Positions 2,241 through 26,499 of a stretch of DNA of 50,657 nucleotides are shown piece by piece; the first letter of the stretch is position 1; each line of letters starts with the position of its first letter. A program made the position numbers and the translations under genes. This DNA comes from Bacteroidota bacterium (GTDB taxonomy: Bacteria > Bacteroidota > Bacteroidia > Bacteroidales > GCA-2748055): positions 1 through 50,657 of the forward strand of contig JAHEEC010000022.1 of assembly GCA_024640885.1 (NCBI GenBank). Reading direction: 5' to 3'. The notes below the pieces were generated by a model. The model saw nothing but the letters and a program-made list of their open reading frames with translations. It was not told the origin of the DNA and searched no databases.

Positions 2241-2292
2241 ACCGTATAATTTATGGTTTCCAGTAACTAACGGGCAGGCCTCTCAGATGGAA

Positions 2293-2322
2293 CAAAAGTA
2301 TGTATTGTTATTTGAATAACAA
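2293..2322 (-). promoter_or_regulatory. Bacteroidota-type promoter of hydG
   Basis: Read on the minus strand, this has a -33 TTG (2320-2322) and, after exactly 19 bases, a -7 element TACTTTTG (2293-2300), a perfect match to TAnnTTTG. That is the canonical spacing for the Bacteroidota primary sigma factor. Transcription should begin near 2286, leaving a 5' leader of about 45 bases before the hydG ATG. Confidence 0.7.
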
Positions 2323-2360
2323 AATGAATCTGGGCATTAATTGCTACATTTATCCACTCC

Positions 2361-3287: not shown

Positions 3288-3299
3288 AATCATAAACCC

Positions 3300-10588: not shown

Positions 10589-10933
10589 ATGGAGAACGAT
10601 TGGAAAAAACGGCTTGGAGTGGTCTATTCGACAGATCCCGAATTCAAGTTTGAGTCGGAAGGGTCCGAATTGCGTGAAACCCCTCCTCCCCGCCAGCAGA
10701 AGCTGTATGTCAGGCTGGATCGAAAGAACCGAAAAGGAAAGACCGTGACCCTGATTGAAGGTTTTGTGGGCAGGGATGAGGATTTGAAATCCCTTGCAAA
10801 AGAGCTGAAAAGCAAATGCGGGGTTGGAGGTTCCACAGGGGATGGAGAGATCCTGATCCAGGGTGATTTCAGGGACCGGATCATCAAAATGCTGGAGGAA
10901 AAAGAGTATCAAGTAAAACGTTCAGGTGGCTGA
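10589..10933 (+). CDS. SUI1/YciH-family translation factor homologue
   Basis: 114 residues from the ATG at 10589 (an ATG-like start at 10580 would add three residues). The C-terminal ~75 residues form a SUI1 fold related to eukaryotic initiation factor eIF1: RKGKTVTLIEGFVG, LAKELKSKCGVGGSTGDG, then ILIQGDFRDRIIKMLEEKEY. The CGVGG-x-GEIxIQGD core is diagnostic. In bacteria the family (YciH in E. coli) has been proposed to influence fidelity of initiation or translation under stress; the role in Bacteroidota is not established. The final codons overlap the GTG of the ankyrin gene by 8 bp, suggesting translational coupling, though the products have no evident link. Divergent from the GH97 gene by 79 bp. 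Confidence 0.88.
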   Translation: MENDWKKRLGVVYSTDPEFKFESEGSELRETPPPRQQKLYVRLDRKNRKGKTVTLIEGFVGRDEDLKSLAKELKSKCGVGGSTGDGEILIQGDFRDRIIKMLEEKEYQVKRSGG

Positions 10934-12365
10934 TCAGGTGAACTTCAGAAAAATATTCTGGCCAATGGTCATGATTGCCCTGCTGGGTACACCGGGCCAA
11001 CGTGCGATGGGACAGGAAACGGATCTTTTTTCTCTGAGTGACACCTCATATTTCATCCAGGGGAATGATGACTGGAACCTGGTTGAATCGGTACTCAGGA
11101 AGAACCATTCCAGTCTCCTTTATTTACTGAAGAGGGGTGCCAATCCAAATGCCAGGGCAGAAGGAGGCATGACCGCCCTCATGTTTGCCGCTGAAAGCAA
11201 CGATTCAATTTCGCTCAAGCTCCTGGTGCTGAACGGGGCCGATTTAGAATTAAGCCCGGTGGAAGAGACCACCCCCCTGATCGTGGCTGCGTTGAATCAG
11301 CAGTTCGAAGCGGCCCGCTTCCTCCTCGAGAAGGGAGCCAACCCGGACCACCTGGACGAATATGGAGGAAGCGCGCTGCTCTATGCTTCAGCCCTGAATG
11401 ATTTCAGGATCGCTGATCTGCTTCTCTTCTACGGGGCCTCGGATACCATCAGGGACCCCGATGGCAACAATGCGCTGATGACCGCAGTATTCTTCGGGAA
11501 CCTGGAAACCGCGGATGTGCTCCTGCAGAATCAACTTGTACCCGACGCCACCGATGACCAGAAGAATACTCCTTTGATGATTGCCTCGCAACAGGGAAAT
11601 AAGGAAATGGTGAAACTCCTGCTGGAGTACGGGGCAGGCCTGGAGAGGACCAATTTGAAAAACTATACCCCCCTGGCGCATGCCATCCAGTTCCGGCAGG
11701 ACAGCACGGCAAGGCTCCTGTTGGACAGCGGGGCCAACGCGGACCACCGGATCACTCCCAACCGGAACCTTTATGACCTCGCGGCCCAGCAAAACCAGAA
11801 AGAGATCCTTTCGATGCTCAAAAAGAGTGGAGCTGGTCCTGTGCCCCGGCCGGATTTTTCGGAATATAACCTGGGATGGGGCAACTCCTTTGGCAATGAT
11901 GAACACATGATGCAGGCCAGGTTTTCATGGGTGGACAGGAAATTTGGTTTTTTTGCGGAGACAGGATTTGATTTCAGGATCGGCTACCGCAAAGTACAAC
12001 TGGCCGAAAACAGCTCCCTGATATACCAGTACAGGGAGTACAGGTGGGGATGGGCCCATGGGGCGGGGAAGTATTTCAGGGTAATTCATGATAAGGGAGG
12101 GATTGATTATGGCGTATATTGCGGACTCTACGGGCTGCTTTCCTTCCCGAGTTACCGTGGGATCAGGGATAATCCACCTCCCCGTTACAGCCTCGTGCCG
12201 GCTGCAGGGGTGTACCTGAAGGGAAGAATGGCAGGGTTAAAGGCCGGGGTGGACAGGTATCACTTTGGAACCCTGGATGAAGGTCCCTGGAAGTTGAACA
12301 TTACCATCTTTATCAGATTCTCAAACCAGTACAAAGCAAGTGTTTACAAAGAGATCCAATATTAA
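10926..12365 (+). CDS. Exported ankyrin-repeat protein with a barrel-like C-terminal domain
   Basis: 479 residues from a GTG at 10926, overlapping yciH by 8 bp (a later ATG at 10965 is possible). The N-terminus is signal-peptide-like: basic NFRK, hydrophobic MVMIALLG, then AMGQETD. About eight ankyrin repeats follow between residues 50 and 300, with the usual TPL or TAL openings, GAN/GAD loops and LLLExGA helices (for example ALMFAAESNDSISLKLLVLNGAD). The last ~170 residues change character to Gly/Tyr/Arg-rich beta strands such as FGFFAETGFDFRIGYRKVQ and YGVYCGLYGLLSFPSYRG, with a strand ending in ITIFIRFS, like an outer-membrane barrel or barrel-like module. So it may display an ankyrin domain in the periplasm anchored at the outer membrane. 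The downstream small exported gene overlaps its end by 26 bp. Confidence 0.78.
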   Translation: MADQVNFRKIFWPMVMIALLGTPGQRAMGQETDLFSLSDTSYFIQGNDDWNLVESVLRKNHSSLLYLLKRGANPNARAEGGMTALMFAAESNDSISLKLLVLNGADLELSPVEETTPLIVAALNQQFEAARFLLEKGANPDHLDEYGGSALLYASALNDFRIADLLLFYGASDTIRDPDGNNALMTAVFFGNLETADVLLQNQLVPDATDDQKNTPLMIASQQGNKEMVKLLLEYGAGLERTNLKNYTPLAHAIQFRQDSTARLLLDSGANADHRITPNRNLYDLAAQQNQKEILSMLKKSGAGPVPRPDFSEYNLGWGNSFGNDEHMMQARFSWVDRKFGFFAETGFDFRIGYRKVQLAENSSLIYQYREYRWGWAHGAGKYFRVIHDKGGIDYGVYCGLYGLLSFPSYRGIRDNPPPRYSLVPAAGVYLKGRMAGLKAGVDRYHFGTLDEGPWKLNITIFIRFSNQYKASVYKEIQY

Positions 12366-12801
12366 AGTCCGTTCCGGATGGGTTCCCGCTGCCATAATCA
12401 CAAGCGTGTTGCTGGCCTGGGCAAACTTTTCCGGTTGTGAGCCGGAGGATTGGATGCCCGAGATAAGCTGTTCCGATTGCTACGGCTTTGAACCAGACAG
12501 TGCAAAACTGATCATCAGGCTGACTATTAATGGAACCTACGATTCGGTCCCCCTTGTGTTCTACAGGGGGGAATACGAGGAGGGTATTATTGACTGGGTG
12601 GATACAGCCACCACCGAAGAATTCTATCTGTATTCGGAGATCGGGGCCGAATACACCGTAAAGGCCACCTACACTTCGGGTGGCAGGACCATAGAAGCAT
12701 TTGATTCCGATAAAATGCATCTGTACGATGGGGCCGCAGAATGCGGATCTCCCTGCTACGTTGTAAAGGGCGGTATATTCGATGTAAAGCTGATCGAATA
12801 G
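12340..12801 (+). CDS. Small exported, probably lipid-anchored protein, unknown function
   Basis: 153 residues from a GTG at 12340, inside the last codons of the ankyrin gene (26-bp overlap). The N-terminus is basic (FTKRSNIKVR) with a hydrophobic stretch AAIITSVLLAWANFSGC; the cysteine after FSG could be a lipidation site, although the lipobox is weak. The mature part has the pair CSDC and later CGSPC, so four more cysteines that could form disulfides, within a beta-rich, acidic domain. I do not recognise a family. Overlap with the ankyrin gene suggests the two products act together at the cell envelope. Confidence 0.6.
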   Translation: MFTKRSNIKVRSGWVPAAIITSVLLAWANFSGCEPEDWMPEISCSDCYGFEPDSAKLIIRLTINGTYDSVPLVFYRGEYEEGIIDWVDTATTEEFYLYSEIGAEYTVKATYTSGGRTIEAFDSDKMHLYDGAAECGSPCYVVKGGIFDVKLIE

Positions 12802-12899
12802 GGTTGGCACTTGGATTATGCTGCGGAATCATGGATGGTGGAAAAAAAGATTTTTATCTTGGGGGCATAACCATATATTTTCGATATTTTAGGAGGTTA

Positions 12900-15800
12900 A
12901 TGGCACCACCCTTGGCTATGCTGAAAACAACTTACATAGCTTTTTTTCTGACCTTTCTGGTTTCCGGGAGCATGCTTGCCCAACCTAATAAGACCGGGGT
13001 TCCCATTGTGACCAACTACGATTATTCCATCACGGGAGGAAGTGAGCAAAACTATTGCATTACACAGGACCTGAGGGGAGTGGTTTACGTGGGAAACAAT
13101 GACAAGGGGGTACTTGAATATGACGGGGTTGAGTGGCGCACCATTCAGGTGCCCAATGATCCCGAGGTCAGATCAATTGTGACCGGGGAGAATGGTGTGG
13201 TCTACGTGGGGGCCGAATCTGAATTTGGGTACCTCTCCCCGGACGAGCGTGGAAATTTGCATTACATTTCTCTCTCGGACACCATTAACCAGGACAGGAA
13301 TCCTTTTTCAGGTGTCTGGAATACCTACTTCGTGAACGGAAAGGTCTATTTCTGCACCTTTGCCAGGATATATGAGTACGATCCTCTCCTGGACAGCCTT
13401 GGGTTCATTGATCTCACACCCTATGCATACTATGCATATTTCATTGACACTACCCTCTTCCTCTCTGATTACGGGGAGGGGTTGATGCAATTCAGCTTCG
13501 ACAGGTTCGTTCCGGTGAAAGGGGGCCACTTTTTCAAGGAAATGGTGATCAGCGGTATACTAAAGTATGATGAGACGAGATTGCTCATCAGCACCTATCT
13601 CAATGGCCTTTTCTTATATAACCTTGCTGCGGGCGAGGTCGAGGGTTCCTTTGTAGACCCGGGTCTGGACGAATTCTTCAAGAATGAGCAGATCCTTAAT
13701 CTTCATTCACTGGACGAGGAATTTGCGGTGGCCACAAGGCTCAAGGGGCTGGTGATCCTGGACAGGAACGGGGAGGCCAAAGAGATCATAACGAAAAAAG
13801 AAAGCCTCATTGATGAGACCATTCCCGGTATCTATTCCGATGGCCTTCATCAAAAGTCGGGACCCGTTTGGATTGCAAACTGGAGGGGGGTCAGTAAACT
13901 GGAGATTCACAATCCCTTCAGGGTTTTCAGGGAAGAATCGGGTTTTGAAGGATTCATCACAGATATCGCTGAGTTCAATGGGACCCTGTTTATTTCGACC
14001 ACCAGCGGACTCTTCTTTAAAAGATCCTCTTCAACCTCCACGGGGTTTGAACCAGTGCCAGGCATCAAGGAGGATATTCGCCAACTTCACATATTCAATC
14101 CCAGGAGGGGCGTTCAACTCCTGCTCGCCACCTCAGATTCCAAGATCTCTGTGATCGACGAGCGCATGGGTGTTACCGATCTCAAGGACCATGTGATCAA
14201 TCTCCCCGGGGACCAGGGATCTTCAACAGATTATGCAGGCGAAGAACTGGTCCTGGATCCAAAACAGCCCGATGTGATCTACACGGGTATCAATGAAATA
14301 GTGGGGTTACAATATACCAGGAGCGGCTGGAGGGAGATCGGCAGGGTGAAGAATCTGCCACAGGAGGAAAAGCTGCAAATGGAAATCGACAAGTATGGCT
14401 ACCTGTGGACCTCTACCCCGCGACGGATCATGCGCCTGGATATTTCCCTGAAGAATGCCGCAACCATAAAGTCCCTGCTCATGGAAAACGGATTACCTGC
14501 CAGTGAAAAGAACCGGGTTTTCCTGGATCCCATGACCCTGGAGGTCCTCCTGGGCACACTGGATGGGTTCTACCGCTACAACTACTTCAGGGACACTGTA
14601 TACCGGGATACGCTCTACAACAGGATACTTCCGCCAGGAAAGAACCTGATCCATGCGTTCCATGAGGACCAGGACGGGGATTATTGGATCTCTTTCGAAA
14701 ATGAGTACACGGGATGGACAGAAATTGCTGCCAGGAGGACCGGGGACTGGGTCGAGGCAATCAGGGGCAAATCCTTCCAGCGCTTGCCCAGGGTATCCAC
14801 CGATGTATTTTACGGTGACAATGCCCAGGGGGTATGGTTCGGTAAATCCAATGAACTTTACCATTTTGACAAATCCTTTTTCCGGAATGACTCCGTAGCC
14901 TTCATCTCCCTTATCAGGAACGTTACCATCAAGAATAATGAGATTCTTTTCAATGGCACCAATTTTAGGGAGAATGGCCGGGGAGGGTATTTGATCCAGA
15001 ATTACCAGGATGAGACCACCCAACCCCACATCAAATACAGGAACAATGACATCGCTTTCAGCTGGGCCGCTCCCTATTTCGAGGAGGAGGAGGAAACCAG
15101 ATTCAGTTATATGCTCGAGGGTTTTGATGAAGACTGGTCAGCCTGGAACAGGGCATCCTACAAGGACTTCACCAACCTCAGGTATGGTCCATATACCATG
15201 CATGTGAAGGCTATGAACGTATATGGGGTGGAGAGCATTCCCGCTACATATTCATTCACCATCTACAGACCATGGTATGCGACCTACGGCGCGATCCTGG
15301 GATATCTCATCCTTTCCGGATTGCTGGTTTTTCTCCTTGTCAAACTCTATACACGCCGTCTCAAGCTGGAGAATATCAGGCTGGAAGGGATCATCGAGGA
15401 GCGCACCGCCGAAATCAGGAAACAAAAGGAGGAACTCACCGACAGCATTGAATATGCCAGCAGGATCCAGCGTGCCCTTTTGCCTCCTAGGAAGCTCATG
15501 GATGAACAGGGTTTGGAACACTTCATCCTGTTCCGGCCGCGGGATATTGTGAGCGGTGATTTTTACTGGATGGGAATGAAAAATGGGAGGTTGCTGATCG
15601 TAGCTGCCGACTGCACAGGTCATGGGGTTCCGGGGGCCTTTATGAGCATGTTGGGAATGACATTCCTGGATGAGATCGTGATCAAGGCAGAAATCACCAG
15701 TACGGATGAGATCCTGGAGCAATTGCGGCAACATGTGATCACTTCCCTGAGACAATCAGGAAAAAGCATCGAGGAATCGACCAAGGATGGCATGGACCTC

Positions 15801-16271
15801 GCCATGGTATCCATTGACCTCAAATCCCGGGAGATCCAGTTTTCGGGTGCCTATAATCCCCTGTATATTGTCAGGAAACTGAAACCATCTGAAATTAAAA
15901 GACTGGAGGAGCAAGAGGAACTTGACATACCCAGGGGATCGATCCATGATGATAAAAACCTTTTGATGCAAATAAGGGCCGACCAGATGCCCATCGGTAT
16001 CTCTGAAAAAAAGAGTCCTTTTACGGCCACCACTTTCAAAGATGAAGGCTTTAGCATGTATATGTTCTCGGATGGATTCCTTGACCAGTTCGGGGGACCC
16101 CAGGGAAAGAAATTCATGTCAAAGAATTTCAAGAAGATGATACTGGAGTTGCAATCAGTGCCGATGCATGAGCAGGGCGCTGCCCTGGAAAAGGTACTGC
16201 AGGGCTGGATGGGTGAGATCAGCCAGATTGACGATATCCTGGTCATGGGATTAAGAATGAACGAACTTTGA
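12900..16271 (+). CDS. Periplasmic propeller sensor fused to cytoplasmic SpoIIE/PP2C phosphatase
   Basis: Transmembrane signal protein of 1123 residues from the ATG at 12900, which follows an unusual true Shine-Dalgarno AGGAGG at 12891-12896. Signal peptide AFFLTFLVSGSMLAQ. Residues about 30-700 are Reg_prop-type beta-propeller repeats, beginning NYDYSITGGSEQNYCITQDL and continuing with GVVYVGNNDKGVLEYDG. About 709-787 is a Y_Y_Y domain (FSYMLEGFDEDWSAW). One transmembrane helix lies near 793-820, then a coiled coil containing IIEERTAEIRKQKEEL. From about 874 a SpoIIE-type PP2C domain has all metal aspartates: SGDFYW, ADCTGHGVPGAF, FSDGF and QIDDI. Expected role: a periplasmic ligand controls dephosphorylation of a Ser/Thr phosphoprotein. 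The next gene is a second phosphatase overlapping by 4 bp. The SiaC-like protein at 20520 is a candidate substrate. Confidence 0.92.
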   Translation: MAPPLAMLKTTYIAFFLTFLVSGSMLAQPNKTGVPIVTNYDYSITGGSEQNYCITQDLRGVVYVGNNDKGVLEYDGVEWRTIQVPNDPEVRSIVTGENGVVYVGAESEFGYLSPDERGNLHYISLSDTINQDRNPFSGVWNTYFVNGKVYFCTFARIYEYDPLLDSLGFIDLTPYAYYAYFIDTTLFLSDYGEGLMQFSFDRFVPVKGGHFFKEMVISGILKYDETRLLISTYLNGLFLYNLAAGEVEGSFVDPGLDEFFKNEQILNLHSLDEEFAVATRLKGLVILDRNGEAKEIITKKESLIDETIPGIYSDGLHQKSGPVWIANWRGVSKLEIHNPFRVFREESGFEGFITDIAEFNGTLFISTTSGLFFKRSSSTSTGFEPVPGIKEDIRQLHIFNPRRGVQLLLATSDSKISVIDERMGVTDLKDHVINLPGDQGSSTDYAGEELVLDPKQPDVIYTGINEIVGLQYTRSGWREIGRVKNLPQEEKLQMEIDKYGYLWTSTPRRIMRLDISLKNAATIKSLLMENGLPASEKNRVFLDPMTLEVLLGTLDGFYRYNYFRDTVYRDTLYNRILPPGKNLIHAFHEDQDGDYWISFENEYTGWTEIAARRTGDWVEAIRGKSFQRLPRVSTDVFYGDNAQGVWFGKSNELYHFDKSFFRNDSVAFISLIRNVTIKNNEILFNGTNFRENGRGGYLIQNYQDETTQPHIKYRNNDIAFSWAAPYFEEEEETRFSYMLEGFDEDWSAWNRASYKDFTNLRYGPYTMHVKAMNVYGVESIPATYSFTIYRPWYATYGAILGYLILSGLLVFLLVKLYTRRLKLENIRLEGIIEERTAEIRKQKEELTDSIEYASRIQRALLPPRKLMDEQGLEHFILFRPRDIVSGDFYWMGMKNGRLLIVAADCTGHGVPGAFMSMLGMTFLDEIVIKAEITSTDEILEQLRQHVITSLRQSGKSIEESTKDGMDLAMVSIDLKSREIQFSGAYNPLYIVRKLKPSEIKRLEEQEELDIPRGSIHDDKNLLMQIRADQMPIGISEKKSPFTATTFKDEGFSMYMFSDGFLDQFGGPQGKKFMSKNFKKMILELQSVPMHEQGAALEKVLQGWMGEISQIDDILVMGLRMNEL

Positions 16272-17071
16272 AAAAATCAACACTTTCAAGGGAAACCCTG
16301 CTGTTTCAACGCAGGGAGCTGATGGCAAGCCTTAAATACGCCAGTTTTATTCAAAAGGCGGTATTGCCTGACCTGAAGTATATGGAGAACATTCTTCGTG
16401 ATTTTTTTGTGCTCCATAAACCCAGGGATATTGTGAGCGGTGATTTTTATTACTGTTCCAGGAAAGAAGAGTACATTGTGGCTGCTGCCGGTGACTGCAC
16501 CGGTCATGGCGTGCCCGGGGCCCTGATGAGCATCATGGGGGTATCCTTCCTGAATGAGATCCTGAGCACCAGGGGACCGGTAAAATCCAGCCGGATCTTA
16601 AACCTGTTGCGGGAAAGGGTCATGAAGGCATTGCACCAGCGGGGTCATGAACTGGAAAATAAGGATGCCATGGACATGGCACTGTGCGTTTTCAATCCCA
16701 AGACCCTGGAGCTTCAATATTCCGGGGCTAACAATCCACTCTATCACATCCGTAAAAAAGTACTCACCGAAATAAAGCCGGATAAAATGCCAGTAGGCAT
16801 CAATGCCATTGAGGAGGAGTCATTCACAAACCACAGCATGCAACTTAAAGCCGGTGATATCGTATACATATTTTCCGATGGATTCCCGGATCAGTTTGGA
16901 GGTCCGTTGAACAAGAAATTTAAATACGGCCCTTTGAAAGAGCTGCTCATCAAAATATCAGATCGGCCCATGGAGCAACAGCGCGATGAACTTGACAGGG
17001 TTATTACCGAATGGAAAGGGGATCAGCTGCAGCTGGATGATATTTTGATTTTCGGGATTAAGTTCGTTTAA
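16268..17071 (+). CDS. Soluble SpoIIE-family PP2C serine/threonine phosphatase
   Basis: 267 residues. A TTG start at 16268 overlaps the previous stop (TTGA, 4 bp), indicating coupled translation. Starting at the ATG at 16321 instead would cut the helix RRELMASLKYASFIQKAVLP, which matches the KEELTDSIEYASRIQRALLP of the upstream protein, so the longer form is preferred. No signal peptide or membrane segment. Metal-binding motifs are complete: VSGDFYY, GDCTGHGVPGAL, FSDGFPDQFGG and LQLDDILIF. It is clearly a paralogue of the C-terminal domain of the preceding sensor phosphatase (shared DQFGG, KKF and WxG motifs), presumably from tandem duplication. It would act on the same or a related phosphoprotein without the periplasmic sensor. 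An ATPase gene begins 11 bp later. Confidence 0.9.
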   Translation: MKKSTLSRETLLFQRRELMASLKYASFIQKAVLPDLKYMENILRDFFVLHKPRDIVSGDFYYCSRKEEYIVAAAGDCTGHGVPGALMSIMGVSFLNEILSTRGPVKSSRILNLLRERVMKALHQRGHELENKDAMDMALCVFNPKTLELQYSGANNPLYHIRKKVLTEIKPDKMPVGINAIEEESFTNHSMQLKAGDIVYIFSDGFPDQFGGPLNKKFKYGPLKELLIKISDRPMEQQRDELDRVITEWKGDQLQLDDILIFGIKFV

Positions 17072-17081
17072 AACGATCCAC

Positions 17082-19409
17082 ATGCAATTAGTTGCCTTCA
17101 GAATTCAGAATTTCAGATCAGTAGTGGACACTGGCTGGCATCAGCTTGCCTACGACAATATCACCAGTCTCATCGGACAGAATGAGTCGGGAAAAACCTC
17201 CATCCTGGAGGGACTCAAAACCTTTCATGACGGGAACCTCATCGAAGATATGCTCAGGAGTGACCTCTCCCTGCCGGTGGTTACCTGCCGGTTCTCATTT
17301 GATAAGGCAGAGATCGAGAACAGGGTCGATCTAAAAAGAATGGATCCGGAGATCCGCAAGGTACTGGGTAGCCTTGAACACATCTCCCTGTCCAGGGAAT
17401 GGGAAAATGAGATGGATTCTCACATGGTGATGGGTGATGAGCTTCAGGAGATATTCAATGAGACCCATGACCAGATCAGGAAAAGGGAGTTGAAGGTCAT
17501 GGAGAAGCTGGAACACATGATCCTCGAGATTTCTGCAGCCACCCAGGCGCTTGAGAAGGCCAGCGATGAAGTGGAATGGACCCGTGAAAAGGTCGAGACC
17601 GTGAAGTTGCGAATGAATGAGCTGAAACGCAACATGAGGAAATTTCCTGCCAGAAACAAGAAAGAGGAGCTCAGGAAGGAGCTTGAACAGGAGGAGGAGA
17701 TGCTGGAGAAACTCAAGGAGACCCTGGAGCAGAAAATCACGAAGCAGGAAGAGAAAAGGGATATCCTTGAAGCCATTGACGAAAAAAGAGAAGCCAGCAA
17801 AAGACTGGAAGAGACTGAGCTGAACATTGCGGGGAAGAAGGAGGAAATGGCCAATGTCCAGGAGGAACTGAAAAGGATCCTTCAGATGACCGGGATGTAC
17901 TCCACGGAAAAGGATCAGCGGGCAGCCGAGATCAAGGAGGAGATCTGCAGGACCGATCTGGAGAGGTTCAGGGAGGAGATCGCCCTTTTTCAGAAGGAAC
18001 ACGAGGCACAATTGCTGGCCCTGGAATTTGTGTTTGATGGCATTACCATAGAAAGTGCCCTGACCGCTGCCAAAAAGGAGATCGAGTCCCGCAATAAATT
18101 TTACAGTTCCAGGGAACTGGCAGAGGAAATATTCAAGATCCTACCTGATTTCGAGCTGTTTGAAGATTTTGGGTCACTCCTTCCCAACCGGATCGACCTG
18201 GAGGATATCGTGCGGGCCAACAGGCGGGCCGAAGGTTACAAGGCCGCCATCAATTTTCTGACAATTACCGGGCTGGAGTACTCCTTTTTCCAGCAGCCAT
18301 CCAGCAGGATCCTGAAACAGAAGATCGAGAACCTGAACGGTGAGCTAACCCTTAATTTCCAGGATTTCTGGAGGCAGAATGTGGGGAAAAACAACAAGAT
18401 CAAGATTAACTTTGAGCTATCCCATTACGACCATACCCATCCTGAAAAAAGCGGCAAACCATTCATCGAGTTCTGGATCAAGGATGAACAGGAGCGACTC
18501 TATCCCAAACAACGCAGCAGGGGTGTCAGATGGTTTTTGTCATTTTTTCTTGAGCTCAAGGCCACGGCCATGGACAAGAGCCAGCGAAATAAAGTGCTGC
18601 TGATCGATGAACCGGGAGTGAGCCTCCATGCAAGGGCCCAGGAAGATGTCTTAAAGGTGTTCGACGACATCAAGGGGCAAATTCAGATCATTTACACCAC
18701 ACACTCACCGCACCTGATCGATGTCAACAAGCTTTACAGGATCCTGGCCGTGCAGCGTGCCATTGAGGATGACATGAAGAGCGAGACCCTTGTATTCAGT
18801 GCCCGTTCCTTAAAATCTGCCACCGCCGATACCCTCTCCCCCATTTATTCCACCATGGGAGCCCGGCTCAACCAGCAGGAGATCATTAAATCATTCAATA
18901 ACGTCATTGTAAAGGACCTGGCTACTTTCTATTTCATGAAAGCGGTCGTTGCCCTGACCGGATTTGATAAAGAGTGCTATTTCCTGCCTGCCTCGGGGGC
19001 TGAAAGCATACCCATGATGGTTAACATCCTCCTGGGCTGGGGCCTTGACTACATCAATCTCAATTTCGGCAACTCCGAAGAGCGCGCCGTGCATGAGAAA
19101 CTGATGAAGGAACATTTTGACAACAATGTGGACCTGGCCATGCAAAAGATGATCTTTATGGATGAGTACCAGGATGCGGAGGATATGCTCTCGACCATTG
19201 ATTTTAAGAAATACGTGGTGAAGGTCCGGGAGGGCATTACGGTTAGAAATTCAGATTACCTGAAGGATAATAATTATTCGAGGGCCATACTGGCCTCCAA
19301 TTTCCTGCAGGAGGTGATCAACGGCAATGTCAACCTGGATAAACTGGACGACGAGTCCAGGGACAACCTCGCACAGTTCACGAAAAAACTGGCAGGGATG
19401 CTCAAGTAA
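17082..19409 (+). CDS. OLD/SMC-like AAA ATPase with coiled coil and degenerate Toprim-like C-terminus
   Basis: 775 residues, cytoplasmic. The ATPase head is split. Walker A GQNESGKTS (32-40, K38, T39) lies in the RecF/SMC/OLD-type opening FRIQNFRSV. Walker B LLIDEPGVSLH has D509 and E510, and the switch histidine is H541 in YTTHSPHL. Residues about 125-310 are a very charged Glu/Lys coiled coil broken by loops. The last ~160 residues have the order of an OLD Toprim domain (IVKDLATFYFMKAV, then FLPASGAESIPMMVNILLGWGLDYINL), but the EG and DxD catalytic acids are replaced, so nuclease activity is doubtful. It is 11 bp after the PP2C gene and probably in the same operon. It could be a DNA-end or stress-sensing ATPase, or part of a defence-type system; the function is not known. 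Confidence 0.8.
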   Translation: MQLVAFRIQNFRSVVDTGWHQLAYDNITSLIGQNESGKTSILEGLKTFHDGNLIEDMLRSDLSLPVVTCRFSFDKAEIENRVDLKRMDPEIRKVLGSLEHISLSREWENEMDSHMVMGDELQEIFNETHDQIRKRELKVMEKLEHMILEISAATQALEKASDEVEWTREKVETVKLRMNELKRNMRKFPARNKKEELRKELEQEEEMLEKLKETLEQKITKQEEKRDILEAIDEKREASKRLEETELNIAGKKEEMANVQEELKRILQMTGMYSTEKDQRAAEIKEEICRTDLERFREEIALFQKEHEAQLLALEFVFDGITIESALTAAKKEIESRNKFYSSRELAEEIFKILPDFELFEDFGSLLPNRIDLEDIVRANRRAEGYKAAINFLTITGLEYSFFQQPSSRILKQKIENLNGELTLNFQDFWRQNVGKNNKIKINFELSHYDHTHPEKSGKPFIEFWIKDEQERLYPKQRSRGVRWFLSFFLELKATAMDKSQRNKVLLIDEPGVSLHARAQEDVLKVFDDIKGQIQIIYTTHSPHLIDVNKLYRILAVQRAIEDDMKSETLVFSARSLKSATADTLSPIYSTMGARLNQQEIIKSFNNVIVKDLATFYFMKAVVALTGFDKECYFLPASGAESIPMMVNILLGWGLDYINLNFGNSEERAVHEKLMKEHFDNNVDLAMQKMIFMDEYQDAEDMLSTIDFKKYVVKVREGITVRNSDYLKDNNYSRAILASNFLQEVINGNVNLDKLDDESRDNLAQFTKKLAGMLK

Positions 19410-19429
19410 TTCAGGTATAAATTGAATCC

Positions 19430-20515
19430 ATGAAAAGTTCCAGGGTTATTCTCTTTTTGATCCTTTGGTTGAATGGGGTGCCGGCGCTAACAGCCCAGGA
19501 TACAATTCTGTTGTTCCATCCCACAGCATATAACCTTGAACTCTTTCAATTGCTGGCAGATGAGGGCATATTTGACCTGAACGGATACCACGTTCTCGGG
19601 GTTTACCACGAGAAGGAGAGCTATGACTATTCCCAGGCAGAGGTATATATTGCACACCACCCTGCCAGCCGTATGAGCCTCCAGGTGATCAAGGGTGCCC
19701 TTGATCCAGGAAATTTGTTCCGTGAAAATGGTTGCTCCGGTCAGTTCAAAAATCTGTTCAATGCATCCAGGGGTGCTTTGTTTATGGGGGGGCCCGATAT
19801 CCCTCCGGCGGTTTATCATGAGCCCGTTCACCTGCTCACATCTGTGACCGACCCGTACAGGCACTATTGCGAGGCATCTTACATTTTTCACCTGCTCGGA
19901 GGGTCCCAGGATCCTTCATGGTTGCCTTTCATGGAAACCAGGCAACAATACCTGGTCAGTGGCATTTGCCTGGGAATGCAAACCCTGAACGTGGCCACGG
20001 GGGGCACCCTGGTTCAGGACATCCCTACCGAAATTTACGGAACATGGATTGCCGACGAGATACTCTCCTTTCCTGCTGACCAGATGCACAGGAACTACGC
20101 TGATATGGTAAATACAGGTTGTGACACACCGACCTCCTATCACTTTCACCATATCATCCTTGAAAAAGGGGCATTTCTTTCAAAGGGCACCGGGTTCAGT
20201 CACCGGAAGGAGCCGCTGGTGCTCAGTTCCCATCACCAGGCGCTTGAAAAACTGGGCGCTGACCTGGTGGTCACTGCCACATCAATGGATGGAAAGATCA
20301 TTGAATCCATAGGCCATAATCGCTATCCCCACGTGTTTGGCGTTCAGTTTCATCCTGAAAAACCGGGGCTGTTTGATCCCACCATCGAACACCCCCAGAG
20401 CTGCAACAGCACCATCAATTTCCAGCAGGCCATTAAGCACACCGACTCCTATACGTTCCACCTTGCCTATTGGAACTTCCTGGGGGAGATCTTACAGGAA
20501 ATAAGGGGAGATTAA
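19430..20515 (+). CDS. Exported class I glutamine amidotransferase-like (peptidase C26) hydrolase
   Basis: 361 residues. Signal peptide MKSSRVILFLILWLNGVPALTAQD puts the enzyme in the periplasm, which is unusual for this fold. The catalytic triad is complete: C180 in SGICLGMQ, H308 and E310 in GVQFHPEKP. GGPDIPPAVY (120-129) and SSHHQA (266-271) are typical of gamma-glutamyl-GABA hydrolase (PuuD) and relatives of peptidase family C26. Likely reaction: hydrolysis of a gamma-glutamyl bond in a small peptide or glutamyl-amine. The segment 60-110 (YDYSQAEVYIAHHPAS) is an insertion relative to PuuD. It begins 20 bp after the ATPase gene and ends 4 bp before the convergent siaC-like gene, so it may be the last gene of the plus-strand run. 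No acceptor-synthase domain is present. Confidence 0.85.
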   Translation: MKSSRVILFLILWLNGVPALTAQDTILLFHPTAYNLELFQLLADEGIFDLNGYHVLGVYHEKESYDYSQAEVYIAHHPASRMSLQVIKGALDPGNLFRENGCSGQFKNLFNASRGALFMGGPDIPPAVYHEPVHLLTSVTDPYRHYCEASYIFHLLGGSQDPSWLPFMETRQQYLVSGICLGMQTLNVATGGTLVQDIPTEIYGTWIADEILSFPADQMHRNYADMVNTGCDTPTSYHFHHIILEKGAFLSKGTGFSHRKEPLVLSSHHQALEKLGADLVVTATSMDGKIIESIGHNRYPHVFGVQFHPEKPGLFDPTIEHPQSCNSTINFQQAIKHTDSYTFHLAYWNFLGEILQEIRGD

Positions 20516-20519
20516 AGGA

Positions 20520-20894
20520 TCATTCGATCTCTATAAAGACAATATTTAAATCGAGGATGGAGGCATAATACTCTCCCCTCTCAAGGATGTCATCATCGCC
20601 TTCCTCATACACCCACTTGATTTTCAGATCATAACCATCGTTATCGACCTCTTTAAGTTTTTTAAGCAGCCTGAGCATATATTTGGAAGTCCCGCTGTTC
20701 AGGTACTCCATTTCAATGTCGACTTCTGTATGGGCGGGCGGCGAAGAGGCATATGCGATGACCCAGTCGAGTATATCTTCATAAAATAAAGATACATCCT
20801 CGGGAATGGACCTTCCTTTGAATTTTATTTTCCCGGAAGGGTCCAGCAATACGTATGGTGTTTTCTGAGTGGGTTGAAACTCTAATTTATCCAT
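20520..20894 (-). CDS. SiaC-family (DUF1987) regulatory phosphoprotein
   Basis: 124 residues from the ATG at 20894 (a TTG at 20912 would add six residues not seen in the family). SiaC of Pseudomonas aeruginosa is phosphorylated by the kinase SiaB and dephosphorylated by the SpoIIE-type phosphatase SiaA; unphosphorylated SiaC activates the diguanylate cyclase SiaD. Visible family features are KTPYVLLDP, GRSIPEDVSLFYEDILDWV and MEYLNSGTSKYMLRLLKKL. S67 (in YLNSGTSK) lies where SiaC has its phospho-threonine, so it is the probable phosphoacceptor. Two SpoIIE phosphatase genes lie 3.5-8 kb away on the other strand and are natural partners. No SiaB-like kinase or GGDEF enzyme is in the window, so the downstream target is open. 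Confidence 0.85.
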   Translation of the reverse strand: MDKLEFQPTQKTPYVLLDPSGKIKFKGRSIPEDVSLFYEDILDWVIAYASSPPAHTEVDIEMEYLNSGTSKYMLRLLKKLKEVDNDGYDLKIKWVYEEGDDDILERGEYYASILDLNIVFIEIE

Positions 20895-20985
20895 CCTATT
20901 GCGAAAATTCAACCCAATATAGTAATTTTTTGGTGCACGGACCGCGAACCCAGGCTCATTTTATTATGCCAGGAGCGCTTCAGGA

Positions 20986-22005
20986 TCAGAAATACATCCT
21001 TGCCAGAGGGGCTATATCCTCTGCTGCAAATTCGCCCTTTAGAAATTTAAAATATCCGGTGATGGCAATCATTGCGGCATTGTCCGTGGAGTAGGTGACA
21101 GGGGGTATGAATACCCTCCATCCACGGGTGTCAGCAGCCTCCCGGATCGCTTTTCGCAATGCTGAATTGGCCGATACGCCCCCGGCCAGGGCAACGTCCC
21201 TGATCCCGCTCTTTTTTGCCGCCTTAACCAGTTTGTTCATGAGGATCTCGATGATGGTCCGTTGGAGCGAGGCTGCAAGGTCTGCCCTGTTTTTTTCAAT
21301 GAAAGCCTCATCATTTTTTATCTGGTCCCTCAGGAAGTAAAGAAATGAGGTCTTCAAACCGCTGAAGGAATAATCAAAACCTTCCAGGCGGGGCTTGCTG
21401 AACGAAAATTTATACATATTCCCCTCCCCTGCCAGCCTGTCCAGGTGGGGACCACCGGGATAGGGCAATCCAAGGAGCTTTGCACACTTGTCAAATGCCT
21501 CCCCGGCAGCGTCATCAATGGTTTTACCCATGATCTCCATCCGGTGGTGGTCATGCACCACCACAAGCTGCGTATGTCCCCCCGAAACTAAAAGACAAAG
21601 AAACGGGAATCGGGGTGAGGGAGCCTCGGCTCCCCCGGAATGAATAAAATGCACAAGGATATGCGCCTGCAGGTGATTTACTTCGATCATGGGGATTCCC
21701 AGCGCAGCGGAGAACCCTTTTGCAAATGAGGTCCCCACCAGCAGCGATCCCAGCAACCCGGGTCCCCTTGTAAAGGCCACCGCGTCAATTTCAGATTTTG
21801 AAATACCTGCTTCTATCAATGCCTGATGCACAACAGGTACAATGTGTTGCTGGTGTGCACGTGAAGCCAGCTCGGGTACCACACCCCCATACTTCCGGTG
21901 CACATCCTGGCCCGCAATCACATTGGAGAGCAATACCCTGTCGCGGACCACCGCGGCCGATGTATCATCGCAGGAGGATTCTATTCCCAGAATTACTGTC
22001 CCCAT
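20986..22005 (-). CDS. tsaD: tRNA N6-adenosine threonylcarbamoyltransferase TsaD
   Basis: Transfers the threonylcarbamoyl group from TC-AMP to A37 of ANN-decoding tRNAs (t6A), working in the cytoplasm with TsaB, TsaE and TsaC/Sua5. 339 residues from the ATG at 22005, typical length. Kae1/TsaD motifs are intact: LGIESSCDDTSAAVV at the N-terminus, RAHQQHIVPVV, the metal-binding VNHLQAH (HxxxH), LVSGGHTQL, DDAAGEAFDKCAKLLG and LAGGVSANSALR. An upstream TTG (22035) is less likely because the family begins at MGTVILGIESS. It is divergent from the tamB-like gene, and the two -7 elements sit only 21 bases apart facing each other. Essential in most bacteria. Confidence 0.95.
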   Translation of the reverse strand: MGTVILGIESSCDDTSAAVVRDRVLLSNVIAGQDVHRKYGGVVPELASRAHQQHIVPVVHQALIEAGISKSEIDAVAFTRGPGLLGSLLVGTSFAKGFSAALGIPMIEVNHLQAHILVHFIHSGGAEAPSPRFPFLCLLVSGGHTQLVVVHDHHRMEIMGKTIDDAAGEAFDKCAKLLGLPYPGGPHLDRLAGEGNMYKFSFSKPRLEGFDYSFSGLKTSFLYFLRDQIKNDEAFIEKNRADLAASLQRTIIEILMNKLVKAAKKSGIRDVALAGGVSANSALRKAIREAADTRGWRVFIPPVTYSTDNAAMIAITGYFKFLKGEFAAEDIAPLARMYF

Positions 22006-22017
22006 GACTACTTTTAT

Positions 22018-22025
22018 TATTTTTG
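22018..22025 (+). promoter_or_regulatory. -7 element for the tamB-like gene
   Basis: TATTTTTG matches TAnnTTTG exactly on the plus strand. The -33 region has no clear TTG (TTA at 21993-21995, 22 bases away). Transcription would start about 22032, leaving no ATG, GTG or TTG in the tamB frame before the membrane anchor. Confidence 0.45.
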
Positions 22026-22046
22026 TTACATTCAACCAGGAAAGGA

Positions 22047-22054
22047 CAAAAGTA
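22047..22054 (-). promoter_or_regulatory. -7 element for tsaD
   Basis: Minus-strand TACTTTTG matches TAnnTTTG exactly and is identical to the hydG -7 element. Predicted start near 22041, about 35 bases before the tsaD ATG. No TTG at the ideal -33 distance. It interlocks with the facing tamB element at 22018-22025. Confidence 0.45.
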
Positions 22055-25000
22055 TTAAAAAGATTGCAAAAATAGGACTTGTAGTGGTGCTTGTGCTCGT
22101 GGCAATACCAGCACTCTCCTTGCTGTTTTTGCAGAACAGGCAGGTGCAGACCGTGGTAAGTAAATATGTGGCTGAACGCCTGTCGGAAGAGCTGCAGGCT
22201 TATATCACCCTCTCCTCAGTCAACTTCTCCTTTTTTAAAAGGATCCAGGTACGGGACCTCTATATAGAGGACCAGCATGGGGATACCCTCATTTACTCCG
22301 AACTTACCCGCATCAGGATCAAACAGTTGGGATCGGACCGGAAGGGCATTGAGATCAAGAAAGTCACCCTCGAGAACACCCGCGTGAATTTTGTAGTTGA
22401 CAGCAGTGGGGTGATCAACCTGGATTTTCTCATTGAAAGGCTTGAAAAACCACATGTTCCTCCTGAAAAAAAATCCAGGTTGCACATTTCCGAGATAGAA
22501 CTGGTCGACGGCAGGTTTTCCCTCACCTTTATGGTGAGATCACCCGAGAAGCCGGGTGTGAACTTTACCGATCTTCACTTCACGGGCTTGCAGATCATGG
22601 TCGCCGACCTGGTTAATTTCCAGGATACTGTCCAAATGGATATCGTTTCGTTGGAAGGTAGCGAAAAATCCGGGTTTGACCTCCGGCAGCTGACCAGCCA
22701 CCTCTCGACTGGAAAATCACACCTTAACTTCAGTAACCTGCAGATTGTCACACTTGAATCTGATCTTCATATACCGGTACTCAGTTTTACCTTTGAGAAC
22801 TGGGGCATGTTCCAGACTTTCTCAAAGGATGTGGAGTTGTTGTTCCAATCGGAACAATCGGCATTGGAAATTTCCGACCTCGCCTATTTTATACCCGGAA
22901 CTGAAGGTCTCGTGGACCGCATCGACATTAACGGCCATGTGCACGGGAAGTTCAGTGATCTGAGGGGAGAGGATCTTTTTGTAACCTTCGATCAAAGAAG
23001 CTCGCTGGCGTTTGATTTTCTTATGATCGGAATGCCAGATTACTCGAGCACCTTTCTTGATTTTCACTTCAGGGAGCTAAATACATCCATAAATGCCCTT
23101 CACAGGATGGCTGGCATGGTGAAGGATTCCGCCAGCACAGCCCCCTTTCCATGGAGCAACCTGGGCAGGTTGGATTTCACGGGTCAATTCACAGGTTACC
23201 CCGATGATTTTGTGGCCACAGGTCTTCTCAAAACTGACATGGGACGGATGATCATGGACCTGTCGTTCAAACCTGACAGCATCCTGGGAGTGGATTTTAA
23301 CGGACGGCTAAGGACCAGTAATTTCAGGCTCGGGGAATTCCTTGCCCAGGAGGATAAACTGGAACAACTGGACATGGATGTGATGACCAGCGGGAGTCTC
23401 TACCAGGGAAATATCCAGGCAAACCTGAAAGGGAACATCGATACGATTGAGATTTTGCAATATGCCTACAGCAATATCAACCTGGATGGGGTATTCACAA
23501 ACAATAGATTTGAAGGGGGATTCAGCATCGTTGATCCCAATATTAAAATGGATTTCCTGGGTAGAATGGATTTTTCAGGAGAGGTTCCTTCATACAATTT
23601 TACGGCTGATGTGGCCCGGGCACGTCCCTATTTTCTTCACCTGGTCCCCCAGGATCCCAATTCATTCGCATCTTTTCTCATTGAAACCGATTTCTCGGGT
23701 AAGACCGTGGACGAAATGAACGGGGAGATTAAACTGGTGAACAGTCTGTTTGTAAGGAAAGATGCACAGCTTCAGTTGTACGATCTGAGCATCTCTGCCA
23801 GAAACACGGCCGACACCTCTCTTTTCCTGGTTCGTTCAGATATGTTTGATGCAAGGATCGAAGGTCAATATGAGCTCTCGCACCTTCCCGCCTCATTTAT
23901 GAATCTGGCCGATCGGTTCATGAATGTAAAAAAGGACCAGCAACCTCAACCTGATACCGGGACAAGGTTTTTTTACGAGGTTGAGTTTAAAAGGATGAAT
24001 CCACTGCTGGACTTTTTCCTGCCTGAACTGCAAATTGGTGATGAAAGCCAGCTGCACGGCACCTATGATCCGTCCGCTGATCTATTCTCCTCAAACGGGT
24101 TCTTTCCAATGCTCCAGGTGAGCCAGAACAACTGGACCAATGTGGATCTTTTCTCAGAAATAAGGGATGATGAGTTCCGCCTCGATATTCAATCAGACAG
24201 CATGACATTTGGAGAAAATTATTCGCTGGTGGAGCAGCAATTTGTATTCCGGGCCGCCAATGACACGGCCCGCCTGGATGTGGTCTGGGATAACAGGATA
24301 AAACCCAGCTACAGTGGAGAGATAAAACTGCTGGGAACATTTCAGCCTGACTCGGTGGAGGTAAGGGGCATCAAGATCGATGTGGAACCAACTGCGATCC
24401 TGGTCCAGGATGACCTTTGGGAAATCAATGGTTCAAGTGTCCTCGTGAAGAAAGGGTACATCGCCGTCGACAGCCTTGAGATCAAAAGTGAGGACAAATA
24501 CCTGGCTGCCCACGGGATCATCTCCGCTGGCGATGACCAGGATTTCAAGCTTGAAGTGAATAATCTGAATCTGGATGGATTGTCTGGATTTACAGAATTC
24601 GAAATGGATCTTGAAGGAAGCATTACGGGGAAAATTAATTTCAAGAAACTGGAAGGAAATCCCTACATTTTCTCTGATTTGACGGTGGATACACTCTATT
24701 TCAACAACCAGCTGCTCGGGCACACTAATCTGAATGCGGCTTGGACCGATTCCAGCAAGACTATTCATATGAATCTGTTGTCAGAAATCGGAGGTGAAAG
24801 ATCAGTGGAGGTTGACGGAACCTTTACCCCGGGAAGCAGTCTCCTGGATTTTAACATTCAACTCAAAGAATTCCAGCTTCAGTCACTCAATCCCTATACG
24901 TCGGCCGTGGCCAGTGACCTGGAGGGTACAGGGAATGTGAACATGACCCTTGACGGGACCTTTCGCAACCCTGAATTGAACGGCACCATTGAATTAAAAA

Positions 25001-26499
25001 ACGGAGCGGCCACCATACCCTATATAAACACGAGGTACACGGTGAGCGACCGCGTAAGAGTCTTTAACAATAACCTCTACCTGGAAAATGTAATTGCCTC
25101 CGATGAATTTGGAAACCTGGCACGGATCAATGGCGCCATCTCCAACACCTATCTCAAAGATTTCTATTTTAACCTGAACATCAATGCCAATAACCTGCTG
25201 GCTCTCAACACAACCTCAGCGGACAACGAGGATTTTTACGGAACCGCATTCGGTACGGGTAATGTAACGATCAGCGGAAGGCCGGATGATATTAAACTTG
25301 GGATCAACGCCATTGTCCAGCGCAATACGGCCATCTATCTCCCCCTTTACAATGCAAGCGAGGTCCAGATAAGTGATTTCATCACCTTTGTTCAGGAGCT
25401 GGATAATGAGGAAGAGAGGAATTCATTGCCACAGAGACAATTCAGCGGGCTGGAAATGGACATGGAAGTGGAGGTCACACCGGATGCGGTGGTCCAGCTG
25501 ATCTTTGATCCCAAGGTGGGTGACATCATTGAAACAAGCGGTCGCGGAACCCTTCGCATCATGCTGGACCAGGCAGGAAACTTCAGCATTTTCGGAGATA
25601 TGGAGCTAATCAAAGGGGATTACCTGTTTACACTACAAAATGTGATCAATAAACGGTTCCAGATTGAACCGGGCGGAAGCATCAGTTTTAATGGTTCACC
25701 CACCGATGCCACCCTGGATCTGAACGCTGTCTATACGACCAGGACCGCACCCTATAATCTCTATCCGGGAGGCAGCAGTGAAGCACCGGAACAACTTAAA
25801 AACAGGATTCCGGTGGACTGCCTTCTGTTCCTGAAGGGCGAACTGCTCTCCCCCACCATTTCAACGGGGATCAAGATGCCCACCGCTGATGCCCGGACGC
25901 GTGACCTGCTGGAAGCTAGTACCAGTACCGAAGAAGAACTCATGAGGCAGTTCCTGGCACTCCTGGTGATCAATAACTTCTACAGCATTTCAGGATATGG
26001 TGTGCAGGATGTGGGAACCATGAACAGCTCCATCGCCGGGGTAACAGCCAGTGAATTGCTCTCCAACCAGCTCAGCAACTGGCTTTCCCAGATCAGCGAT
26101 GATTTTGACATTGGTGTAAATTACCGTCCCGGTGACCAGATCAGCAGTGATGAAGTGGAAGTGGCCCTTTCCACACAATTGTTGAACGACCGCATTATTA
26201 TCAGTGGCAATGTGGATGTGGGCGGCCAGGATATGAATCCATCCCAGAGTTCCAATAATCCATATATCGTTGGAGATTTCGATGTGGAATTCAAAGTCAC
26301 CGATAATGTAAGTGTCATCGCATTTAACCGGGCAAGGGATGAATTGCTATTTGAAACAGCGCCTTATAAACAGGGAGTCGGTGTATCATACAGGGAAGAA
26401 TTTGATACCATGCGGCAGCTTTTGCTCCGCTACCGGGAAGGAATTTCCAACCGAAAAAAGAAAAAGATTAATCCGGATTCTCTTGAACCGGAAAATTAA
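22054..26499 (+). CDS. tamB: TamB-like translocation/assembly or lipid-transport protein (DUF490)
   Basis: Giant inner-membrane-anchored periplasmic protein, about 1481 residues if it starts at the ATT at 22054. Order: a short basic start (KKIAKIG), one membrane anchor (LVVVLVLVAIPALSLLFL), an AsmA-like N-terminal region (LSEELQAYITLSSVNFSFF), a very long beta-taco region of repeated beta strands, and the C-terminal TamB/DUF490 domain over about the last 400 residues (SGRGTLRIMLDQAGNFSIFG, GDYLFTLQNVINKRF). Family members bridge the inner and outer membranes and take part in outer-membrane protein assembly or phospholipid movement. The start is a problem: the only standard in-frame start upstream is a GTG at 21898, lying antisense within tsaD. 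Pairing with divergent tsaD looks like a conserved Bacteroidota arrangement. Family confident, start uncertain. Confidence 0.88.
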   Translation: MKKIAKIGLVVVLVLVAIPALSLLFLQNRQVQTVVSKYVAERLSEELQAYITLSSVNFSFFKRIQVRDLYIEDQHGDTLIYSELTRIRIKQLGSDRKGIEIKKVTLENTRVNFVVDSSGVINLDFLIERLEKPHVPPEKKSRLHISEIELVDGRFSLTFMVRSPEKPGVNFTDLHFTGLQIMVADLVNFQDTVQMDIVSLEGSEKSGFDLRQLTSHLSTGKSHLNFSNLQIVTLESDLHIPVLSFTFENWGMFQTFSKDVELLFQSEQSALEISDLAYFIPGTEGLVDRIDINGHVHGKFSDLRGEDLFVTFDQRSSLAFDFLMIGMPDYSSTFLDFHFRELNTSINALHRMAGMVKDSASTAPFPWSNLGRLDFTGQFTGYPDDFVATGLLKTDMGRMIMDLSFKPDSILGVDFNGRLRTSNFRLGEFLAQEDKLEQLDMDVMTSGSLYQGNIQANLKGNIDTIEILQYAYSNINLDGVFTNNRFEGGFSIVDPNIKMDFLGRMDFSGEVPSYNFTADVARARPYFLHLVPQDPNSFASFLIETDFSGKTVDEMNGEIKLVNSLFVRKDAQLQLYDLSISARNTADTSLFLVRSDMFDARIEGQYELSHLPASFMNLADRFMNVKKDQQPQPDTGTRFFYEVEFKRMNPLLDFFLPELQIGDESQLHGTYDPSADLFSSNGFFPMLQVSQNNWTNVDLFSEIRDDEFRLDIQSDSMTFGENYSLVEQQFVFRAANDTARLDVVWDNRIKPSYSGEIKLLGTFQPDSVEVRGIKIDVEPTAILVQDDLWEINGSSVLVKKGYIAVDSLEIKSEDKYLAAHGIISAGDDQDFKLEVNNLNLDGLSGFTEFEMDLEGSITGKINFKKLEGNPYIFSDLTVDTLYFNNQLLGHTNLNAAWTDSSKTIHMNLLSEIGGERSVEVDGTFTPGSSLLDFNIQLKEFQLQSLNPYTSAVASDLEGTGNVNMTLDGTFRNPELNGTIELKNGAATIPYINTRYTVSDRVRVFNNNLYLENVIASDEFGNLARINGAISNTYLKDFYFNLNINANNLLALNTTSADNEDFYGTAFGTGNVTISGRPDDIKLGINAIVQRNTAIYLPLYNASEVQISDFITFVQELDNEEERNSLPQRQFSGLEMDMEVEVTPDAVVQLIFDPKVGDIIETSGRGTLRIMLDQAGNFSIFGDMELIKGDYLFTLQNVINKRFQIEPGGSISFNGSPTDATLDLNAVYTTRTAPYNLYPGGSSEAPEQLKNRIPVDCLLFLKGELLSPTISTGIKMPTADARTRDLLEASTSTEEELMRQFLALLVINNFYSISGYGVQDVGTMNSSIAGVTASELLSNQLSNWLSQISDDFDIGVNYRPGDQISSDEVEVALSTQLLNDRIIISGNVDVGGQDMNPSQSSNNPYIVGDFDVEFKVTDNVSVIAFNRARDELLFETAPYKQGVGVSYREEFDTMRQLLLRYREGISNRKKKKINPDSLEPEN

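Follow-up and report, generated by a model that had tools for sequence, protein, structure and literature searches.

A soluble SpoIIE-type phosphatase and an OLD-like ATPase conserved as a pair in Bacteroidota, with a possible connection to SiaC

The stretch of DNA considered here (the window, 50,657 nucleotides; contig JAHEEC010000022.1 of assembly GCA_024640885.1, handled as C205) comes from the 4.37-Mb genome, assembled in 276 contigs, of a Bacteroidota bacterium of the Bacteroidales. It carries a run of four genes on the forward strand, encoding a sensor phosphatase, a soluble SpoIIE-type phosphatase, an ATPase with the architecture of the OLD nucleases and an amidotransferase, which is met from the other strand by a gene for a SiaC family phosphoprotein (Table 1). 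An earlier note, made from the sequence alone, had taken these five genes as one possible partner-switching system; the families it assigned, the 4-bp overlap of the two phosphatase genes, the 20 bp between ATPase and amidotransferase and the 4 bp between the amidotransferase stop and SiaC are all confirmed, and the gap ahead of the ATPase, given as 11 bp, is 10 bp. Promoter-like sites were as frequent as chance predicts and terminator-like sites slightly more frequent, and the run is regarded as more than a chance arrangement because its order is conserved in relatives. The conserved core of the run is the soluble phosphatase together with the ATPase; the case that these two form one functional unit is strong, and they are probably co-transcribed.

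Table 1. Features of the phosphatase–ATPase locus and the adjoining SiaC–TsaD block, in window coordinates.
Feature	Position	Strand	Basis
Sensor: Reg_prop, Y_Y_Y, C-terminal SpoIIE phosphatase	12741..16271	+	Pfam
Soluble SpoIIE/PP2C phosphatase of SiaA type; opens the pair	16268..17071	+	Pfam SpoIIE, 75.9 bits
OLD/GajA-architecture ABC-type ATPase, second gene of the pair	17082..19409	+	AAA_15/AAA_21
Degenerate Toprim site of the ATPase (K611, F662-x-N664)	18912..19073	+	77-sequence alignment
Peptidase_C26/class-I glutamine amidotransferase (GATase)-like amidotransferase	19430..20515	+	Pfam, 88 bits
SiaC family phosphoprotein	20520..20912	-	Pfam SiaC, 105 bits; 6k4f/6kko by phmmer
TsaD (N6-threonylcarbamoyladenosine, t6A, synthesis), directly upstream of SiaC, same strand	20986..22035	-	Pfam, 316.7 bits
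TamB-like protein diverging from TsaD; forms the conserved border of the SiaC–TsaD block	21898..26499	+	Pfam TamB, 202 bits

Across an order sample of 60 relatives and the window's own genome, the ATPase was detected at E < 1e-30 in 24 of the 61, eighteen of the 24 belonging to one genus, and wherever the contig shows the position an orthologue of the soluble phosphatase lies directly beside it. All 18 searched genomes of the window's genus, 58–99% complete, have the ATPase. Loci from named genomes were also collected, with scan patterns that select this ATPase subfamily and with partner phosphatases detected by models built for this analysis. Among the best 80 of 163 such loci, 78 have a stand-alone SpoIIE phosphatase immediately upstream of the ATPase and in the same orientation, the remaining two (L107 and L115) being on contigs that begin inside the ATPase gene. 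The two genes are separated by 2–260 bp (median 14; 100 bp or less in 71 of the 78). The tie between a phosphatase and an OLD-like ATPase that the earlier note had pointed to is therefore found well outside the genus, and no description of such a pair was found in the titles and abstract beginnings of the open-access papers that the searches listed. The titles of 78 of the 80 locus records name Bacteroidota, Bacteroidales or another Bacteroidota group; the pair also occurs in records titled as metagenome-assembled genomes of Chlorobiota (L122) and Spirochaetes (L142), by transfer or misbinning. Since a class-wide survey returned the ATPase at 1e-30 in 3 of 395 genomes, including the window's own and one partial match, the pair is no general feature of the class.

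The ATPases of the window, L098–L115 and L137, at 59–86% identity, define what is called the window's clade; those of the other 61 loci are at most 46% identical, and their position outside the clade rests on identity and on the ATPase tree. The flanks of the pair outside the clade fall into a few recurrent sets that differ by lineage and are fixed within lineages. Twenty representative neighbours scanned there were mostly ordinary chromosomal genes, including those for a TRAM/rRNA methyltransferase, a GWxTD protein, an ATP-binding cassette (ABC) protein, RlmN, SSB, pyruvate kinase, adenylosuccinate lyase and OmpA; one recurrent neighbour is a Phage_integrase family tyrosine recombinase (7 loci), and one neighbour matched nothing. 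A diverged copy of the pair, with an ATPase 37% identical and cut by the contig end, was seen in G018 (L083 11352-13383), and its genus mate G023 has no more than a short matching fragment. Among 72,556 plasmid records, 86 match part of the ATPase, none of them over 80% of its length, and none of 50,697 phage records covers 80% of it. A phage origin of the pair was considered and rejected: six viral contigs encode relatives at 26–36% identity, and the phosphatase model matched nothing in the DNA available for these contigs.

The predicted model of the soluble phosphatase (mean predicted local distance difference test, pLDDT, 86.8) consists of an N-terminal helix and a PP2C fold. Its best Foldseek match is the PP2C domain of SiaA (6k4e; E 6e-21, TM score 0.92 by target), followed as the next protein by SpoIIE (5ucg; E 3.6e-12), and 6k4e is also its only sequence match in the PDB at E 0.001 (1.9e-29). 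The metal-site residues D59, D76, D204 and D258 are invariant in a 39-row alignment. Against the NCBIfam equivalog model for SiaA the soluble phosphatase reached 161 bits and the sensor 180, the cut-off being 700, and the former is accordingly described as SiaA-like and not as SiaA. A tree placed the 39 pair phosphatases on one side of a branch and 20 other SpoIIE domains on the other, with a support of 93 in the Shimodaira–Hasegawa-like approximate likelihood ratio test.

All 77 aligned ATPase sequences share the same seven key residues in Walker A, signature, Walker B and H-loop. The predicted model of the window's ATPase (mean pLDDT 83.8, predicted template-modelling score 0.68) combines an ABC head with a coiled coil (residues 119–318) and shows, in its C-terminal part, the strand–helix order of a Toprim domain. 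Its top fold matches, SMC heads (Z up to 17.9) and PtuA (17.1), lie over the head, while the nuclease OLD (6p74; Z 16.9, 364 residues aligned, root-mean-square deviation 7.4) and GajA (Z 15.3) are matched from residue 2 to 775, so that the domain order of OLD with its ABC core is present over the whole length. The OLD family nucleases share this layout of an N-terminal ABC ATPase and a C-terminal Toprim-like fold, and according to the accessible part of PMC6755086 the Toprim glutamate and DxD motif are essential to them. The window's protein differs in having K611 in place of the catalytic glutamate and F662-x-N664 in place of DxD, as well as in its partner, a protein phosphatase. The three Toprim residues are all present in 8 of the 77 sequences (L116, L118, L119, L123, L126, L128, L131 and L142), two in 3, one in 22 and none in 44, so that neither the window's ATPase nor 68 of its 76 relatives have the full site. 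On a tree built without the Toprim columns this residue label needs three changes, which points to an early or repeated loss of the residues with retention of the ATPase. Judged on these residues there is a strong case that the Toprim of the window's ATPase no longer cuts, and the possibility of an active OLD nuclease was set aside. As a side observation, L118, L119, L123 and L131 have a gene on the opposite strand facing the ATPase; these genes form one cluster, and the member scanned is an exonuclease/GIY-YIG protein.

The sensor and the amidotransferase are optional neighbours of the pair and not core parts. The former was found in 14 of the 19 family genomes with the upstream side visible (G018, without a sensor, being counted) and the latter in 19 of 22 (missing in G019, G020 and G026), so that the earlier proposal of the five genes as one system was not upheld. 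In four genomes of the genus (L069, L073, L077 and L090) the sensor is absent exactly between a small upstream open reading frame (ORF) and the soluble phosphatase, and the visible neighbours remain. In G018, G021, G023 and G025, relatives of the amidotransferase are found close to SiaC and apart from the pair. The start of the sensor is at 12741 in the ORF list, an in-frame ATG at 12900 being equally likely, and its transmembrane helix was judged by eye, as was the signal peptide that makes the N-terminus of the amidotransferase look exported. Upstream of the run, at 10926-12801, lie genes for an ankyrin-repeat protein and a 153-residue ORF without a Pfam match, which are kept in many genomes of the genus.

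The SiaC protein of the window, more likely to start at the ATG at 20894, has no other PDB sequence matches than 6k4f and 6kko (DUF1987/SiaC) and lies below the NCBIfam SiaC equivalog cut-off, with 58.5 of 150 bits. Thr68, which the accessible part of PMC7647112 gives as the phosphosite of SiaC in Pseudomonas aeruginosa, corresponds to a serine here (YLNSG), and serine or threonine stands at this position in 34 of 34 aligned SiaC sequences. SiaC adjoins the pair in all 21 genomes of the window's clade in which that side is visible. Elsewhere, among 30 loci that hold the best SiaC matches of other genomes, 22 have TsaD on the strand of SiaC at a distance of one or two genes, with the ATPase near none of the 30, and SiaC is for this reason assigned to the TsaD block. 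The order SiaC after TsaD, on one strand and one or two genes off, was seen in many of the Bacteroidota genomes examined (window 20520-22035 and L214-L242). In two family members where no ATPase was found (G024 and G027), a sensor phosphatase of the window's type lies within one gene of SiaC–TsaD–TamB (L214 and L215). As the sensor has this place near SiaC without the pair, the position is independent of the ATPase, and the latter is not involved in the link between sensor and SiaC.

The earlier note had also stated that no SiaB kinase is present. This holds at the locus, where the SiaC of the TsaD block has no SiaB of its own, but not for the genome, which has two DUF6272/SiaB genes, neither of them on the window's contig. 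One, on C102, adjoins another SiaC gene and a HAMP-SpoIIE phosphatase; the other, on C11 (L095 7528-8040), has no SiaC nearby and is flanked by RNase H and an FtsX/MacB permease, RNase HII being close by. In all, the genome holds four SiaC genes and 14 SpoIIE genes (16 match rows, two genes being split in two). Among the ten proteins scanned between 8512 and 26499 none is a GGDEF protein or other cyclase, a genome-wide search for one not having been made. As an observation on the kinase family, single frames of 524 and 529 codons in G042:C210 (~2211-3575) and G036:C193 (~22836-24203) have two SiaB matches and a SiaC match each and are, from their sequence, apparent kinase–substrate fusions; frames of ~380 codons that carry two SiaB matches occur often. 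The locus thus resembles SiaABCD of Pseudomonas aeruginosa, as far as the accessible parts of PMC7647112 and PMC8457831 describe that system, in its SiaA-type PP2C, in a SiaC whose Thr68 position holds Ser/Thr and in the presence of SiaB in the genome. It differs in that the phosphatase is soluble, sensor-less and paired with an ATPase, that the kinase lies away from the gene cluster and SiaC sits with TsaD, and that no cyclase is seen among the locus genes. SiaABCD is mentioned in PMC9239204 as a merger of PP2C and cyclic di-GMP signalling.

Of the 61 loci outside the clade, 50 were examined for a connection of the pair to SiaC in trans, L119, L127, L129, L131, L142, L148, L151, L157, L159, L163 and L165 being left out. 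SiaC and SiaB are both present in all 50 of these pair-bearing genomes, and L119 (the genome G040) has eight SiaC genes. Within the order sample the ATPase (1e-30) occurs in none of 21 SiaC-negative genomes, and SiaC is present without it in 16 of the 61. The Fisher value of this table is inflated by the one genus that supplies 18 of the 24 ATPase genomes, and no weight is placed on it. The linkage of SiaC to TsaD was then inspected in the 50 genomes and G040, at one to three SiaC loci each (the best matches to the window's SiaC). A TsaD-linked SiaC was found in 38 of these 51 pair genomes, 50 of which are observable, versus none of 11 genomes (9 observable) from other families that have SiaC and lack the ATPase; G460, G033 and G035, whose contigs end on the needed side, count in neither the 50 nor the 9. 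The comparison of 38/50 with 0/9 gives a Fisher probability of 2e-5 with kinship not removed. The SiaC tree is weakly resolved, and its TsaD-linked sequences are spread over more than one clade (8 changes). In this tree, 10 of the 11 best matches from pair-less genomes fall into a clade (support 100) with the SiaB-linked SiaC of the window's genome. From this placement and the counts, the pair shows a tendency to occur with the TsaD-linked type of SiaC, with exceptions in both directions. The SiaC link in trans is thus supported by the SiaA-type phosphatase, by the constant presence of SiaC and SiaB and by the TsaD-linked type, and there is moderate support for the phosphatase acting on a SiaC-type protein.

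The reading favoured here, to which a probability of roughly 0.5 is given, is that the pair works with the ATPase as the regulatory partner of the phosphatase and with the SiaC of the TsaD block as the likely substrate. Two units would then meet in the window, namely the phosphatase–ATPase pair and the SiaC gene in its TsaD block. The nucleotide state of the ATPase, perhaps also its DNA-bound state, would be passed through the coiled coil and would switch the phosphatase via the latter's own N-terminal helix; the phosphoserine of SiaC would be the most likely substrate, and one of the genome's SiaB kinases would oppose the phosphatase. In the window's clade the two units would stand together, usually with the membrane-bound propeller-sensor phosphatase, so that SiaC could take input both from outside, through the sensor, and from inside, through the ATPase. 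The substrate, the regulator and every direction of the signal are putative in this scheme, and the gating of the phosphatase by the ATPase is inferred from the strict pairing and the lack of a sensor on the phosphatase. RsbU, the PP2C phosphatase of the Bacillus stress-sigma pathway, is switched by a protein partner, RsbT, via its N-terminal part. The same logic would apply here through a hypothetical contact, with an SMC/OLD-like ATPase, not a GHKL-type protein, as the partner. More tentative, and possible at best, is the fuller proposal of a chromosomal module built on an OLD/SMC-like ATPase that is nuclease-dead and may still read the state of DNA or nucleotide. This ATPase would gate a SiaA-type phosphatase that acts mostly in trans on TsaD-linked SiaC, and would so feed an intracellular signal into the SiaC partner switch.

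Several points weigh against the favoured reading. SiaC lies beside the pair in none of the 61 loci outside the clade, the flanking DNA being short for some, so that adjacency of SiaC and the pair is confined to the window's clade. The SpoIIE domains of Bacteroidota may all be SiaA-like, so the likeness to SiaA need not be specific, and the branch support of 93 for the pair phosphatases is not conclusive. The co-occurrence counts are not corrected for kinship. Twelve pair-bearing genomes outside the clade have no TsaD-linked SiaC in the loci inspected, and in the pair-bearing G484 and G499 the best SiaC falls into the SiaB-linked clade. Conversely, the pair-less G033 has a SiaC outside that clade and may have the TsaD-linked type (its contig begins beside the gene), and G021, G023, G024, G025 and G027 keep this SiaC type with no full pair found. 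The contact between ATPase and phosphatase is itself hypothetical.

Of the rival explanations, the one that survives best, though doubtful, is that the pair is self-contained, with the phosphatase acting on the ATPase or on another phosphoprotein, and that the adjoining SiaC has no functional meaning in the one clade where it is found. A gene order confined to a single clade can be inherited without meaning, and both the place of SiaC in the TsaD block elsewhere and its absence beside the pair in the 61 other loci would be expected; the SiaA-type phosphatase, the presence of SiaC and SiaB in every pair genome tested and the contrast in TsaD-linked SiaC argue against it. The next, rather unlikely, is that the phosphatases set the state of SiaC as the input and that the ATPase, switched on by free or phosphorylated SiaC, is the output. 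This would agree with the adjacency in all observable clade genomes, with the tendency of the pair and TsaD-linked SiaC to co-occur and with the Pseudomonas SiaC, which, according to the accessible part of PMC8457831, acts by binding its output enzyme SiaD. However, the ATPase is kept far more strictly with the phosphatase than with SiaC, and this SiaC type persists without the full pair in G021, G024, G025 and G027; the strict pairing is accounted for no less well by an ATPase that regulates the phosphatase than by one that is the output of SiaC.

Least probable by far is an anti-phage system in the style of PARIS, Gabija or Septu, in which the OLD-like ATPase would sense invasion and the phosphatase would be the effector: AriA is the best PADLOC match of the ATPase (8e-28), followed by Old, PtuA and GajA, GajA and PtuA are among its fold neighbours and the two-gene layout is shared, but the partner here is a SpoIIE phosphatase that matches no PADLOC model, the Toprim site is not intact, no AriB, GajB helicase or PtuB is among the window neighbours scanned (these have other Pfam identities), the ATPase is in the same place throughout the genus wherever the context is visible, and the flanking genes of other lineages are constant within each lineage and mostly of housekeeping type, with a Phage_integrase recombinase as one recurrent neighbour (7 loci). 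A mobile defence system is argued against by these chromosomal flanks, by the genus-wide presence and by the want of full-length plasmid or phage relatives, and a defence island was on the same grounds rejected as the principal explanation.

The interpretation put forward in the earlier note is thus partly supported, in its phosphatase–ATPase tie and in the SiaC link, now in trans, and not in its five-gene system. The retention of the pair in a number of Bacteroidota lineages suggests a signalling switch not described before, to which the neighbouring SiaC may be connected although it is of a different gene block. As the pair is small and looks soluble, its key contacts are directly testable. 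The known roles of OLD-like ATPases are those of nucleases and of proteins in phage defence. If the favoured reading is true, the pair would represent a new role for the OLD architecture, with the ATPase kept, the nuclease residues lost and the protein retained with a protein phosphatase; it would add a new type of input to SiaC partner switching, which in the open-access literature searched is described only from Pseudomonas, and a defence-type ATPase architecture would have been turned into a regulator of protein phosphorylation.

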